From Candidatus Sumerlaea chitinivorans (GTDB taxonomy: Bacteria; Sumerlaeota; Sumerlaeia; Sumerlaeales; Sumerlaeaceae): a DNA stretch of 64,000 nucleotides. Positions 31,386-37,784 of the stretch are shown here, piece after piece. Positions within the stretch are counted from its first letter, which is position 1, and every line of letters starts with the position of its first letter. Made by a program: the position numbers and the translations under genes. The stretch covers positions 2,368,572 through 2,432,571 of the forward strand of contig CP030759.1 of the NCBI GenBank assembly GCA_003290465.1. The letters are read 5' to 3'. The notes beneath the pieces were generated by a model. It was not told the origin of the DNA. It made no database searches and saw only the letters and a program-made list of their open reading frames with translations.

Positions 31386-34300
31386 TCACCGCGTATAGAG
31401 GTTTTCGAGCACCTTTTCGACATTCTCAGGCGTGATCTCCATCCCCCGCAGCGAGCGCATCGCCACGATCTGATTAAGCGCGCCTTTCAGCTCGCGGACG
31501 TTTGACGTGATCCGTTCGGCGAGCAGCGTCACGACCTCCGGCGGCACTTCCAAATTCGCCGTTTCGATCTCGCGGTTCAGAATCGCGATACGCGTCTCGA
31601 GATCGGGGGGCGCAATGTCCACGATCACGCCCGCACCAAAACGCGAAAGCAGCCGATTCTCCAAACGCGCAATGTCCTTCGGCGGACGATCGCTCGTGAT
31701 CACAATTTGCTTCTTCGCTTGGAAGAGTGCGTTGAAAATGTGGAAGAACTCTTCTTGCGCACGCTCCTTGCCCGCGAGGAATTGCACGTCGTCCACGATG
31801 AGCAGGTCCACCGATTTGTAGCGGGAGCGGAACTGCGCAATCGTGTTGGTCTGGATGGCCTCGACGACCTCAGCCGTGAAGTCCTCGGAGTTCGTATAAA
31901 TGATCCGTACATTTGGATTCTGCCGCAAAATGTAGTTCGCGATCGCGTTTGCGAGGTGCGTCTTGCCAAGCCCCACATCCGAGTAAATGAACAACGGGTT
32001 GTAGGCCTGCGCCGGTGCCCGAGCCACCGCCAAGGCCGTCGCGTAGGCAAAGTTGTTGTTCGCCCCAATCACAAAGTGCTCGAAGTCGTACTCGGGCACA
32101 ATTTGGAGGATGGGCGTCGCGGGCACGGCTGCTTGCACAGGCCCAGCAGCGGCCACCGTTTGCGGAATGTTCGCGGAAATAAAGCGATACTCCTCGAGTG
32201 CGCGGGCCTGATCACCTAAGGACGCGTAAAGCTCCGCACGCTGCACCCGCGCGGACATGCGAAGTGGCGTCTCGTTGATAACCTCATCCAATACCGCGAG
32301 CGCTCGTTCCTTTTGCTCCGCAGCGATCAAGCGCTTGGCAAATTCCTCGAGTTCAACCCATGCGGCTTCGCGATCGCCACTGGCCATGAGCACTGTTGTC
32401 AATGCCCGCACCGCAGTTTCATCCATGGGCGCGAGCGCAACTGTTTCGCGCGCGAGTTCGATCGCGTCGGTGAGTTGCCCAAGTTGCTGCAGGAGATCCA
32501 CAAGCGCCACTCGCTCCACGAGCGCATCGGCCTCGCGTCCAAGACTTTCCAAAATACGGATCAGCAAGCGGTGCCCCTGCACATTCTCCGGGTTCGTGAG
32601 CACCAGCCGACGTGCGGTCGCGAGGGCGGTTTCCAGCTCTCCTTGCTCCGCATGGGCCTCGGCAAGCTCCAGCAGGCGCAGCTCGAGCTTGTCCGTCGCG
32701 CCCGTTTCCTCGTGCAGCGCCACAAGCTCCTGAAGCGCCCGGGCATTGCGTGGGGAGATTTCCAAAATGCGCTCGAGAGCCGCTTCCACTTTCGGTGCTT
32801 GTTTCACCTGACGGTGCGCCGCGGCTTTGGCAAAGAGGCGTTCGAGCGCAGCAGGAATGTCGGTAGCCTCTAAGCAGAGTGCGATGGCTTCATCGCGAAG
32901 ACTATCGTCCAGGGGATCGGCCTCGATAAGCTCGTCGTAGATTGCGAGCGCCTGCGGCAATTCTCCGCGCTCGCGATGCATCTCGATCCGCTGACGTCCA
33001 CGTCGTTTCGCCTCCTCGAAATCCCCCGATGCCAACGCCACCGCCATGAGATCGCTCAGCAAATCCAAGTTTCCGGGATGCTTGCCGAGGCCAGATTCGA
33101 GCAGCGTTCGCGCTGCCTCGTAATCTTGTTTTGCCATGAGCTGCTTGGCAAAGCTCAATGTCGTGGCCAAAGCACGTTCACTTTGCCCGGCATCATATTG
33201 AGCGGCGATCAAACGGCGCCAAAGCGTGGCGTTCTCGCCTTCGAGCTTGAGGGCGCGTTCGAGCGCTTTGATTTCCGCTGAGTAATCCCCTCGGCTTCGC
33301 GCTGTGTCCGCTCGCTGGAGCGCCGTCGCAACTTCAAACTGGCGACGCTCTTGGTCCGCACGCGCCGCATCCCCCATCTGCTCATAAATTTCTGCCCGGA
33401 TCTTTCGCGGCTCAAGGCGCGCCGGCATCAACGCGAGACATTCACTCAGCACCCGCAGAGCTTCCTCGAATTGACCTTGCTTCGCGTGCAGGCGGGCAAC
33501 CGCCTCGAGCTCTTCAACACCACGCTCGACCTCGCCCAAAGCCACGAGCGTCTCGGCCATCCGCATCCGCGCGAGCGCATCATCGGGTGCAAGCGCCACC
33601 GCCTCTTCTTCTGCGGCCAGCGCTTGCTCGCCCTGCCCAGTACGCGAATAGAGTTCGGCGAGCCCGTGAAGTTCCACAACTGCCTTATCGGTGGCATTTG
33701 TGCGTTTCAACAAGTCAATGAGTGCGCGACGCAGCTCCGCGTCGTCCGGCTTCGCTGCAATGGCTCGCCTCAACGCCAACTCAGCGAGATCAACGGCTCC
33801 TGACTGGGTATGGATTGCGGCCAAGCGCTGCAGTAGCTCGACCAAGAGCCGAGTATCTCCGCGCTGCTCCGCGATGCGCACCAATCCCTCGACGGGCGCC
33901 GCGGCACCCGGATCCAAAGTCACGGCCCACTCAAATCTTCGCTCGGCCCGTTCGTAGTCTTGCGCCTGCAGCGCGCGGTTCGCCTGCTCAAGAATGAGAC
34001 TCATGGCCTTCTCTGTCAGGCCAGCCTGCACCAGAAATGCGGCATAGCTTTCCGCGAGGGCTTCATCCTTCGGAGAAAGCGCAAGCACCTGCTCGAACAC
34101 CTGCACAGCTTCTTTGGTGTTTTTCTGAGCAAGCAAGATGGCAGCCAGCTCACGCCCTACTGCAATTGCGGCCGGCAAGTCGCTCTCGCGCAGGAGAAGC
34201 TCGAAGAGCGTCCGCGTGAGCTCCACGTTCCGCGGATCGCGCGCCCGCCCTTGCTCAAGTAACTCGCGCGCTTCCGCGATGCGCTTCTCGGCAATCAAAA

Positions 34301-37300
34301 GGCGGGCAAGGTGATGGGTAGCGCGGCTCGCATCTTCCACATTGCCGGCCTGAGCTTCGCATTCGATGAGCTGACGCAAAAGCTCCACATTCTTTTGGTC
34401 GTAGTTGAGGGCTTCACGCAACATTGCGGCCGCACGGGCCCAATCCCCCTGCTCGCGGTAGGTCCCAGCCTGCCGCAAGAGGCTCCGCAGATAAAACTGG
34501 TTGAGCTCCTCCTGCGCCTTATCCGATTCACCTAACTTCTCATAAACCTCAGCGCGCAGACGCCGCGCGCTCAGACGCTCCGGGGCAAGTTCGATAAGCT
34601 GATTCAATGCCTCAAGGGCAGGACGGTACTTTTTATCCTCGGCGAGGAAGGTGGCGAGCGCCTCCAATTGCAATGCCGCTGCATCCACCTCTCCAACTGC
34701 CAGCAATTGCTCGATGTATTGCTGACGAACTGCAGGATCTGTGGGAGCCATTTCCACAGCGCGCTGATAGGCAGCAAGCGCCTCCGACACTCGCCCAGCT
34801 TGCTTATGGATCGCACCGATCTGCTGGAGGGTTCGCACTGCGTCCGCGGGTCGCTCCTGACTCACGTAGGCGTCAACCAGTGAACTCAGGACGGCTACAC
34901 TCTCCGGCAAAACCTTTGCCGCACGGCGCAGGATCGTGACCGCTTTCTTCGCTTGCCCTGCTTGCTGGTATAGTCGGGCAAGCGCCACGGCATAAGTCTC
35001 AAACTGTGCAAAATTCTTCTGTTGTTCGTAAAGGGCGACGAGCTCCTCGAACACCCGTTCATCGTTGGGTCGCCGTTCGGCAAGCTCCAGCAAGGCCCGC
35101 TCCGCAACGTCAAGCTGGTTCGCTGCCCGATGTTGCTTAGCTAATGCAAGCAGGCGCTCATCCGCTTCCTCCGCGCGCCCGATTTCCCGGAGGAAAGTCA
35201 CGTACTTGAGTACCAGCTCAGCATTATCTGGATCGCACGCGACAATCTGGCTATAGACCTCAGCGGCTTCGTCGTTCCGGTCGAGAATCTGAAGCAGTTC
35301 CACAAGGTACTGCCCACGTTCCACCGCCTTTGAGTTTTCCCCCATTTGACGCAACAGGTCGAACAGCGCACGGTTCGTCGCAACGTCGTCCGGCGATTTC
35401 GCAAGAGCCTGCTCCAAAGTGGCTTGCGCCTTCGCCAGAAAGCCACGCTTTTGCTGGATCGCGGCAAGATCGCGGGCAACCCGACACGCTTCGGCCGCGT
35501 TCCCCCGACTAAACTCGCATGCCACAAGCTGCGCCAGAAGCTCCTCATTTTCAGGATCTTTTTCCAGCGCGGAACGTACAACCCCCGCTTCCGCTTCATA
35601 TGCGCCTTGAGCGTGATGGAGCCGCGCAAGTTCCAGCCGACTCGCTTGCGCCTTCACCGCGTTGCCCACACGCTCGTAGAGCTGAATGAGGCGCTCGAGT
35701 CCCGCGACGTTATCGGGGCGAAGCGCAGTCAAGCGCTCGAGCGTCGCAATAGCCTCCCCATACGCCTGTCTCGCTTCGTAGGCATTCGCCAAACGCAGCA
35801 GTGTGTCCGCATAAAGCGTCTGCTCCCCTTGCCCATAGTAATATTTCGCAAGCGCTTCGATCGCCGGAATAAACATGGCATCCAACGCAAGAGCTCGGTT
35901 GAGCAATTCGAGAGTGGTTTGCGCATCGCCACGCTCCACCGCCACGTTCACCAGCTTCATGAGCTCCTGTAGGGCTTGATCGCGTCGCCCCACTTGATTG
36001 AGCACTTCCACAAGCAGCAAGTGGAGTTCGCGCGCCTCGGGAGCCACAGCACACACCGACCGCACGCCTTGCTCGGCCTCCTCGTTACCTCCCGCAGCAA
36101 GCCACTCTTCGCACGCAAGACGCGCCTGCTCGGTGGCAAGTTGGATCCTGTCGACAGCAGCTAATGCGCGAGCGTATTTCATGCGCAATTCCGGCGTGGG
36201 CGGAACATGCGAAACTGCCCGCTCATAAAACTCGACCGCTCGAGCGGGTTTCGTGCCCACCGTTGCGTCAGCCAGCGCCTCGAACTCCGCGGCGGCCTCT
36301 TGGCGCGCCCGCAAGTTGCCACTCTCTCCCCACTTCTCCAGCGTCGCAGCACGCGCCACACGCAACTCAGTCGGATCTTTCGCAAAAGCTTGGGCTTGGT
36401 CGTAGACGCGCACAGCATGCGCAAAATCGCCCCGCGCCGCAAGCACCTCTGCAAGTTTGCCGTACGTTGCGAGCGCTTTACCCTGGTTTCCCGCTCCCTG
36501 ATATGCCTCGGCCAGCAACTCTAAAGCTGTAAGATTCTCGGGTGCCGCTGCAAGGAGCTCCTCGAGCTCTTGAATCGCGCGTTTCCAATTGCGCGCTTCC
36601 ATGGAGGCCCGGGCTGCACGCACACGGAGCCCGATCGCCTCCTCCTGCATCCCCAGATCATGGAAGAGGGCACTCAGCTTTTCGGCGGCTTCGTCTGTGA
36701 GTGGGACTGCGTCCAGAATTTTGCGCAGTACAGTTCCCGCCTCCTCGCGCCGCTCGTTCGCAATGAGCCATTCCACCGTCTCAAAAACTTTTGGGATCCA
36801 ATTCCCGCCTGCATCCGCCAGAATTGCGAACTCAGCAAAACGCACGCGCAGCCCCACGTCCTCCGGCGCACACTGGATAGCCAATTCGAGACTCGTGGCC
36901 GCGCGGTTAAAATCCGCCTCGTGGATGGCGGCCTGTGCACGCTCGGAAAGGAAGACCGCCGCCTGCTCCGGCTGCCCCATCTGCTCGTAGGCCTGCAAGA
37001 TGTGGGGCACGACATCCACCACGTCCAACTTCAGCGCATCCACGCGCTTATAGTTGTCCACCGCAGCCGCAAAATCTCCGACCGCTTCGTAGAGGTCCGC
37101 CGCACTCATGAGTTCTTCGAGGGCGCGATCCACCTCACCTTGCTCAGCAAGCAATTGGCCAAAGAGTGCGTGCGCCTGCGCATTCCCCGGGTCCAGCTCA
37201 GCCCACTTCTCCGCATGCTCGAAGGCCGCGCTTCGCTCACCGCGCTCCGCGTAAAGGCAGGCTAATTCCCCGTGAATGCGCGCAAGCTCCTCCGTGTTGC

Positions 37301-37784
37301 CCGTGGCGGTGTAAACCTGCACAAGACCTTTGAGTGCCCGCTCTTCCCGAGGGGCAATCTCCACGATTTCGCGAAACGTCTTCCCCGCCTCTTCGTACGC
37401 CTCCAGCGCCAAGAAGTTTTTTCCTATCTCGAGCTGTTTCTCCACGTACTCGGGATCAATGGGAAGCTCGACCTTCAGGCCGAACTTCTCCACCAGTTCC
37501 TTGAGTGCATCCTCGAGTGGGATCTCACGCGATAGCGCGTAGAGATCCACCAACGTGCCGCCGCTTGCCCCTTTGCACAGGCCGTACATGCATCGGAAGG
37601 TGCGCTTGCCTTTATCTATGATGAGCGTGCGAAAGACCGTCTCTCGGTGAATCGGGCAAAAGCCGCGGATCGTTTCCGCGCTCTCTTGCAATTTGTCTGG
37701 CCGGTAACCAATCAGTTCCAGTAGCTGGCGGATATCCAGCTGACTGTTGACCTCAGCGATAACCTTTTCCGAGTAAGGGCTCAT
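31386..37784 (-). CDS. Giant fusion: CHC2-like zinc finger, TPR superhelix, DnaA AAA+ domain
   Basis: One uninterrupted frame encodes 2132 residues. Residues 1-108 resemble the DnaG-primase CHC2 finger: Cys43 and His46 (GFCPIH), Cys65 and Cys70 (RCMYGLC), then GGTLVDLYAL. Residues 110-1890 are TPR-like helical hairpins, several dozen, Ala/Glu/Leu-rich. Residues 1899-2132 match DnaA domain III: YDFEHFVIGANNNFAYATAL, Walker A VGLGKT (Lys1941), Walker B LLIVDD (Asp1998-1999), the QFLAGKERAQEEFFHIFNAL helices, box VII Arg2048 (LLSRFGAG) and sensor II Arg2097 (NVRELKGAL). The protein stops there: DnaA domain IV, which reads DnaA boxes, is absent. It should bind ATP and may oligomerise or contact DnaA, helicase or single-stranded DNA, but its role is unknown. 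It is far too long and lacks domain IV, so it is not the housekeeping DnaA. Confidence 0.9.
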   Translation of the reverse strand: MSPYSEKVIAEVNSQLDIRQLLELIGYRPDKLQESAETIRGFCPIHRETVFRTLIIDKGKRTFRCMYGLCKGASGGTLVDLYALSREIPLEDALKELVEKFGLKVELPIDPEYVEKQLEIGKNFLALEAYEEAGKTFREIVEIAPREERALKGLVQVYTATGNTEELARIHGELACLYAERGERSAAFEHAEKWAELDPGNAQAHALFGQLLAEQGEVDRALEELMSAADLYEAVGDFAAAVDNYKRVDALKLDVVDVVPHILQAYEQMGQPEQAAVFLSERAQAAIHEADFNRAATSLELAIQCAPEDVGLRVRFAEFAILADAGGNWIPKVFETVEWLIANERREEAGTVLRKILDAVPLTDEAAEKLSALFHDLGMQEEAIGLRVRAARASMEARNWKRAIQELEELLAAAPENLTALELLAEAYQGAGNQGKALATYGKLAEVLAARGDFAHAVRVYDQAQAFAKDPTELRVARAATLEKWGESGNLRARQEAAAEFEALADATVGTKPARAVEFYERAVSHVPPTPELRMKYARALAAVDRIQLATEQARLACEEWLAAGGNEEAEQGVRSVCAVAPEARELHLLLVEVLNQVGRRDQALQELMKLVNVAVERGDAQTTLELLNRALALDAMFIPAIEALAKYYYGQGEQTLYADTLLRLANAYEARQAYGEAIATLERLTALRPDNVAGLERLIQLYERVGNAVKAQASRLELARLHHAQGAYEAEAGVVRSALEKDPENEELLAQLVACEFSRGNAAEACRVARDLAAIQQKRGFLAKAQATLEQALAKSPDDVATNRALFDLLRQMGENSKAVERGQYLVELLQILDRNDEAAEVYSQIVACDPDNAELVLKYVTFLREIGRAEEADERLLALAKQHRAANQLDVAERALLELAERRPNDERVFEELVALYEQQKNFAQFETYAVALARLYQQAGQAKKAVTILRRAAKVLPESVAVLSSLVDAYVSQERPADAVRTLQQIGAIHKQAGRVSEALAAYQRAVEMAPTDPAVRQQYIEQLLAVGEVDAAALQLEALATFLAEDKKYRPALEALNQLIELAPERLSARRLRAEVYEKLGESDKAQEELNQFYLRSLLRQAGTYREQGDWARAAAMLREALNYDQKNVELLRQLIECEAQAGNVEDASRATHHLARLLIAEKRIAEARELLEQGRARDPRNVELTRTLFELLLRESDLPAAIAVGRELAAILLAQKNTKEAVQVFEQVLALSPKDEALAESYAAFLVQAGLTEKAMSLILEQANRALQAQDYERAERRFEWAVTLDPGAAAPVEGLVRIAEQRGDTRLLVELLQRLAAIHTQSGAVDLAELALRRAIAAKPDDAELRRALIDLLKRTNATDKAVVELHGLAELYSRTGQGEQALAAEEEAVALAPDDALARMRMAETLVALGEVERGVEELEAVARLHAKQGQFEEALRVLSECLALMPARLEPRKIRAEIYEQMGDAARADQERRQFEVATALQRADTARSRGDYSAEIKALERALKLEGENATLWRRLIAAQYDAGQSERALATTLSFAKQLMAKQDYEAARTLLESGLGKHPGNLDLLSDLMAVALASGDFEEAKRRGRQRIEMHRERGELPQALAIYDELIEADPLDDSLRDEAIALCLEATDIPAALERLFAKAAAHRQVKQAPKVEAALERILEISPRNARALQELVALHEETGATDKLELRLLELAEAHAEQGELETALATARRLVLTNPENVQGHRLLIRILESLGREADALVERVALVDLLQQLGQLTDAIELARETVALAPMDETAVRALTTVLMASGDREAAWVELEEFAKRLIAAEQKERALAVLDEVINETPLRMSARVQRAELYASLGDQARALEEYRFISANIPQTVAAAGPVQAAVPATPILQIVPEYDFEHFVIGANNNFAYATALAVARAPAQAYNPLFIYSDVGLGKTHLANAIANYILRQNPNVRIIYTNSEDFTAEVVEAIQTNTIAQFRSRYKSVDLLIVDDVQFLAGKERAQEEFFHIFNALFQAKKQIVITSDRPPKDIARLENRLLSRFGAGVIVDIAPPDLETRIAILNREIETANLEVPPEVVTLLAERITSNVRELKGALNQIVAMRSLRGMEITPENVEKVLENLYTR

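Follow-up and report, generated by a model that had tools for sequence, protein, structure and literature searches.

A zinc finger, a giant TPR arm and a DnaA-type AAA+ domain joined in one conserved protein of the Sumerlaeia

Results

Architecture and distribution of the protein

We analyzed a window of 64,000 nt from Candidatus Sumerlaea chitinivorans (contig CP030759.1, positions 2,368,572 to 2,432,571) and focused on a single gene in it, located at 31386..37784 (−), which encodes a protein that joins a zinc finger, a tetratricopeptide repeat (TPR) arm and a DnaA ATPase domain. The source genome is one contig of 3.29 Mb, and a complete Sumerlaeota genome, that of Ca. Sumerlaea chitinivorans BY40, is known (PMC8092238). 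The open frame begins with an ATG, contains no internal stop and encodes 2132 residues, in which Pfam and structure models place, from the N to the C terminus, a DnaG-type zinc-binding domain, ~1780 residues of TPR and domain III of DnaA. An earlier note, written from the sequence of the window alone, had described this joining of three modules in one frame and had named an assembly error merging separate genes as a reason for doubt. Comparison with relatives upheld the former and disposed of the latter: another 20 genomes of the class Sumerlaeia encode finger, TPR and DnaA in a single frame and in the identical order (21 genomes and 14 families in all), and because of this recurrence an assembly or fusion artefact was rejected. 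A tandem-repeat artefact was looked for in the DNA of the gene and none was found, and Pfam scans of the full-length protein and of its N-terminal 120 residues detected neither a Toprim domain nor an RNA polymerase core.

The named relatives among public genomes are Sumerlaeota, except for one assembly labelled Omnitrophota. Partial copies of the gene lie on short contigs in other genomes, and in one relative (G001) the gene is split by a frameshift (L038). The length of the whole protein ranges from 925 to 2151 residues, with a TPR region of variable length between two fixed ends. The fused protein was not found among the PF00308 matches listed for G039, which belongs to another class of Sumerlaeota, and neither it nor any other finger-TPR gene was found in G004, which is 92% complete and belongs to the source organism's own family; some lineages can therefore probably do without the protein.

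The middle of the protein (residues 111–1890; 32115..37454 (−)) is a predicted TPR superhelix, for which Pfam reports 22 TPR_19 and 19 TPR_14 stretches, in agreement with the ~1,780 residues of TPR-like repeats noted earlier. By calculation this arm is strongly acidic, with an isoelectric point (pI) of 4.95 and a charge of about −80 at pH 7. The linker that leads from the last TPR into the AAA+ domain (residues 1874–1889; 32118..32165 (−)) is predicted to be disordered (AlphaFold predicted local distance difference test (pLDDT) <50).

The N-terminal zinc finger

The N-terminal module (residues 1–110; 37455..37784 (−)) resembles the CHC2 zinc-binding domain of DnaG. PF01807, the CHC2 zinc ribbon of DnaG, matched the N-terminal 120 residues alone with 25.3 bits, marginally above the cut-off of 24.9, and because of this marginal score we ran three more tests. 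A profile search of the PDB with the finger found DnaG (2au3, E 0.0068); hhalign aligned the finger with the DnaG of the same genome over 87 columns with 94.6% probability; and the AlphaFold model of the finger (pLDDT 93.2) had as its only significant PDB matches in Foldseek the DnaG zinc-binding domain 1d0q (E 8e-5, TM-score to target 0.72) and the DnaG structure 2au3. The CHC2-like finger claimed in the earlier note thus stands, with one correction to its DnaG-like reading. The zinc site is C43-x2-H46 ... C65-x4-C70 (37575..37658 (−)), and its second knuckle is C-x4-C throughout the family, in contrast to the C-x2-C of DnaG. The four ligands are invariant in two family alignments; the exception is family f13 (L071, L072), where the second ligand pair is gone and the remaining protein is intact. 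The finger is slightly acidic (pI 5.9).

The C-terminal DnaA domain

The C-terminal module (residues 1897–2132; 31389..32096 (−)) is a DnaA domain III, an AAA+ domain with its lid. PF00308 (Bac_DnaA) matched residues 1897–2056 of the full protein with 222 bits, the C-terminal 244 residues matched Bacillus subtilis DnaA (8bv3) with 280 bits, and the model of the domain superposed on 8btg and 8bv3 in Foldseek with E 1e-21 or better, 54% identity and a root-mean-square deviation of 1.8–2.0 Å. The complete-looking ATPase domain of the earlier note, with Walker A and B, box VII Arg, sensor II Arg and the DnaA-specific helix, was confirmed in each of these elements. Walker A (SDVGLGKTHL, residues 1935–1944; 31953..31982 (−)) contains K1941, Walker B consists of D1998 and D1999 (31788..31793 (−)), and box VII (31629..31658 (−)) carries R2048, the equivalent of the established Arg finger R285 of Escherichia coli. 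The sensor II motif NVRELKGALNQ (31470..31502 (−)) retains R2097, and the initiator-specific helix is present. The Walker A Lys, the Walker B Asp pair, the sensor 1 Asp and the equivalents of R281, R285 (the box VII Arg finger) and R334 are invariant in all 24 aligned family members. Judged by these residues, the domain appears intact and may bind and hydrolyse ATP and oligomerize.

Residues V/I1974, K2006 and R2008, the equivalents of E. coli V211, K243 and R245, which are known to contact single-stranded DNA (ssDNA), are kept in 23/24, 23/24 and 21/24 members, and these positions are better kept here than in other non-initiator DnaA domains. Other positions have changed in a family-specific manner: D1936 in Walker A replaces the G of initiators, K2100 in sensor II replaces an E found in 25/25 initiators, Q2105 replaces R or K, and the residue before the box VII Arg has often changed from E/D to K. 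In L045, a relative, the P-loop is damaged and reads GKNQ in place of GKTH.

The remaining domains of an initiator are missing. Pfam detected no DnaA_N (domain I) in the full-length protein or its terminal pieces and no Bac_DnaA_C (the helix-turn-helix of domain IV), and the protein stops after the lid of domain III. The normal dnaA, whose presence the earlier note had raised as a question, lies elsewhere in the genome (C1:1059860), where it encodes a complete canonical protein of 510 residues with DnaA_N, AAA+ and helix-turn-helix domains. The AAA+ domain scored 88.6 bits against the Hda equivalog model TIGR03420, short of its cut-off of 194.8.

In phylogenetic trees of DnaA AAA+ domains, the TPR-linked domains form one clade, with support of 100/100 in one tree and 99/85 in a wider tree. 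In approximately unbiased (AU) tests, holding all non-initiators as one clade was not rejected (p-AU 0.153), nor was holding all initiators together (p-AU 0.459).

Gene context and a membrane partner

The gene is not adjacent to dnaA or dnaG. In the source organism's family it is not in an evident operon, and its radical-SAM and membrane-protein neighbours are common only to close relatives. In eight genomes of other families, a gene directly downstream encodes a protein of ~140–230 residues which, by sequence, has one hydrophobic transmembrane segment and a SHOCT-like motif. This gene starts within ~120 bases of the stop codon, with a 4-base overlap in G013. A profile of the SHOCT-like protein matches 35 of 40 genomes, and in ~7 more genomes the coordinates place its gene directly after the finger-TPR-DnaA gene (~15 in total); Pfam recognized SHOCT in one of the three proteins scanned. 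The coupling of the gene to this single-pass protein in many families makes recruitment of the scaffold to the inner membrane probable.

The finger and the DnaA domain in other proteins

The finger occurs in several other settings. The source genome has two more finger-TPR proteins without an ATPase, of 2601 residues (L057:4356-12161) and 500 residues (L058:7845-9347); the larger one is the neighbour of a large, probably secreted protein, as is often the case for the paralogue of 2600–3100 residues, in other phyla too (L139, L140). Elsewhere the finger is a stand-alone protein of 128–142 residues, or is combined with a GGDEF-like domain (L141:8883-9743; PF00990, 25.8 bits) or, in proteins of 750–760 residues from other phyla, with a DnaB-like RecA domain (DnaB_C; L144:7921-10185, L145:7892-10180). 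In three loci outside Sumerlaeia (L142, L143 and L095), a finger-TPR gene is directly followed by a gene for an ExeA-type AAA_22 ATPase, which in L142 and L143 precedes two PilB genes, with a PilT-type gene nearby in one of them; L095 has the ExeA-type gene only. In G013 (L149), a finger-TPR gene of 481 codons lies directly upstream of a PilT-type ATPase of the type II/IV secretion family (T2SSE). Another finger-TPR relative (L157) seemed by eye to contain PilZ domains, which Pfam did not confirm, and these were not used. As a separate observation, the 3.29 Mb genome G000 contains 19 T2SSE matches, many of them PilT-sized, which is many for one genome. A joint loss of pili and the finger-TPR family was sought in G004 and not seen, as T2SSE genes remain there.

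DnaA domain III is likewise found in other multi-domain proteins. We surveyed PF00308 across genomes by listing the best matches, and the tallies of fusions in other phyla are lower bounds. MshEN, which serves the ATPases of pili and of type II secretion as a receptor domain for cyclic di-GMP (c-di-GMP; PMC5013675), is fused to DnaA domain III in three loci (L197: 4309-7260, 8694-9923 and 9942-15923; L158:9340-10899; L159:8205-9728), two of which (L158 and L197) have pilus-type genes including PilB close by. PilB and PilC are near MshEN-DnaA in L158 and, within the same 20 kb, in G304; in L197, MshEN-DnaA is beside PilB and pilin-like and prepilin-peptidase-like genes. A protein of 1993 residues among these loci carries two DnaA domains ~1300 residues apart. 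Finger-TPR and MshEN-DnaA occur as separate genes in the same genome in G304 and G167.

Receiver (REC) domains are fused to DnaA in L202:1336-3249 (checked by Pfam), L203:7186-9033, L204:7140-9050 and L208:6932-8452, and G187 has 12 DnaA-domain matches, including MshEN-DnaA and several REC-DnaA paralogues. Tandem DnaA-DnaA proteins of 650–700 residues are present in at least four genomes (L198:5392-7497, L199:7021-9096, L205:6924-9017, L206:7643-9598), several of them near DUF4388, CheC or roadblock genes; some of these neighbours were named by eye and a subset was scanned with Pfam. Two coiled-coil-like proteins of 1700 residues have degenerate DnaA-type domains towards both ends (L201:6512-11752, L207:6959-12070). 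The earlier note had named use of the same domain as a generic ATPase in other proteins as a finding that would refute its reading, and the MshEN-DnaA, REC-DnaA and tandem DnaA proteins largely bear this out. These proteins, found here in other phyla, did not appear in a partial literature search, in which the lone co-mention of MshEN and DnaA was a passing one in work on SmbA, and which yielded no paper joining DUF4388 with DnaA or CHC2 with TPR.

Discussion

We propose, with a probability of about 0.45, that the protein is a membrane-recruited scaffold whose DnaA-type AAA+ domain acts as an ATP-driven assembly switch, possibly for pilus or surface machinery. In this model partners would bind to the long acidic TPR arm as their scaffold, the DnaG-type zinc ribbon at one end would serve for docking or recognition, and DnaA domain III at the other would be an ATP-dependent oligomerization switch. 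ATP-bound subunits would pack the Arg finger of one against the nucleotide of the next and thereby gather the TPR arms, which hydrolysis would release, and the SHOCT-like transmembrane partner would recruit the scaffold to the inner membrane. There it may function in building surface machinery of the type IV pilus or c-di-GMP kind, or in its signalling, and not in origin firing. The partners that the finger and the DnaA domain have elsewhere speak for surface or pilus signalling rather than for initiation, and the AAA+ domain may belong to a non-initiator lineage; the pilus or surface process itself is our guess from these gene and domain associations. For every Sumerlaeota metagenome-assembled genome studied, twitching by type IV pili has been predicted (PMC8092238).

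Several observations weigh against this proposal. In the source organism's family no pil gene lies beside the gene, and Pfam found no pil domain in its product; such neighbours and domains occur with relatives of its modules. Adjacency of finger-TPR genes to pilus genes is limited to a handful among ~50 loci, two of which are alike, and the genomes concerned hold many T2SSE genes anyway (19 in G000). G004 keeps 12 T2SSE matches without any finger-TPR gene. The wider tree places an MshEN-DnaA domain nearest to the TPR-DnaA clade, a link with weak support (61/96). A tree that puts the family together with Sumerlaeota DnaA is worse by 25 log-likelihood units and disfavoured, and the AU test does not reject it (p-AU 0.099); a recent duplication of the phylum's own dnaA would thus be a disfavoured source of the AAA+ domain. 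Finally, a mere assembly switch would have no need of the ssDNA-contact residues that the family has kept.

Because of these retained residues, we kept as the main rival a nucleic-acid-binding factor in which both ends bind ssDNA and the TPR arm links this binding to a partner, with competence, repair or defence as possible settings. The sensor of ssDNA that the earlier note gave as an alternative retains some plausibility on the same grounds. The fold of the finger, which is that of the DnaG zinc-binding domain, and the finger-DnaB_C proteins of other phyla are in line with such a role. However, the slightly acidic pI of the finger and the loss of two zinc ligands in f13, where the AAA+ domain is intact, speak against it, as do the coupling to a transmembrane protein and the company of the finger, which is mostly found with TPR, beside ExeA/PilB or alone rather than on polymerases; we regard this explanation as unlikely. 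The protein could instead regulate replication initiation, either in the manner of Hda or as a decoy that enters assemblies of canonical DnaA and governs its ATP state, given that its domain III is complete with an Arg finger while domain IV is absent, an arrangement shared with Hda, and that the cell also has a canonical DnaA. The charge swaps (E to K at 2100 and, frequently, E/D to K just ahead of the box VII Arg) speak against its assembling with initiators. The score against TIGR03420, the lack of adjacency to dnaA and dnaG and the apparent absence from G004, in the same family, also weigh against this role, which we consider quite improbable. The replication-initiation scaffold or regulator suggested in the earlier note finds no support: the protein has neither domain I nor domain IV, a canonical dnaA lies elsewhere, and the relatives of both modules are mostly found in non-replication proteins and loci. 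A structural TPR protein with the AAA+ domain as a relic without a specific role would fit the more than twofold variation in total length and the damaged P-loop of L045, but the catalytic residues, which hardly vary among 24 deeply diverged proteins from many families, speak against it, and we consider it highly improbable.

DnaA is viewed as a bacterial protein dedicated to initiation, and Hda as its satellite. If the assembly scaffold proposed here is correct, the DnaA AAA+ domain would have been repeatedly reused as an assembly switch, in a class-wide scaffold and in the MshEN-, REC- and tandem-DnaA proteins, and a Bac_DnaA match should be annotated with caution, as it does not imply replication. 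A broader and more doubtful idea is that DnaA domain III may have left replication in several phyla to become an ATP switch in signalling proteins of the surface, pilus and two-component types, with the Sumerlaeia version swapping the MshEN sensor for the finger and the giant TPR arm. Whether the family assembles apart from the initiator of the same cell could be tested through its charge changes at K2100 and D1936.

Compared with known systems, the finger shares with the DnaG zinc-binding domain its fold and the CxxH ... C zinc site, but differs in its second knuckle, belongs to a protein without a Toprim or polymerase core, and is encoded in a genome that has a separate dnaG. With DnaA the protein has in common the AAA+ domain III, Walker A and B, the Arg finger, sensor II and the ssDNA-contact residues; unlike DnaA, it lacks domains I and IV, is fused to TPR and a finger, and has D1936, K2100 and Q2105. 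Hda is also a DnaA AAA+ domain without domain IV, but the sequence of the window protein is far nearer to DnaA than to Hda, and its size and context are very different. The pilus ATPases of the PilB/MshE type share MshEN with the MshEN-DnaA fusions (PMC5013675) and adjoin finger-TPR genes in L142 and L143, whereas their motor is a T2SSE ATPase rather than DnaA and has no homology to the window protein. The MshEN-DnaA, REC-DnaA and tandem DnaA proteins likewise place domain III without domain IV in multi-domain proteins and include the nearest, weakly supported, neighbour in the tree; where the window protein has finger-TPR at its N terminus, they have MshEN, REC or a second DnaA.

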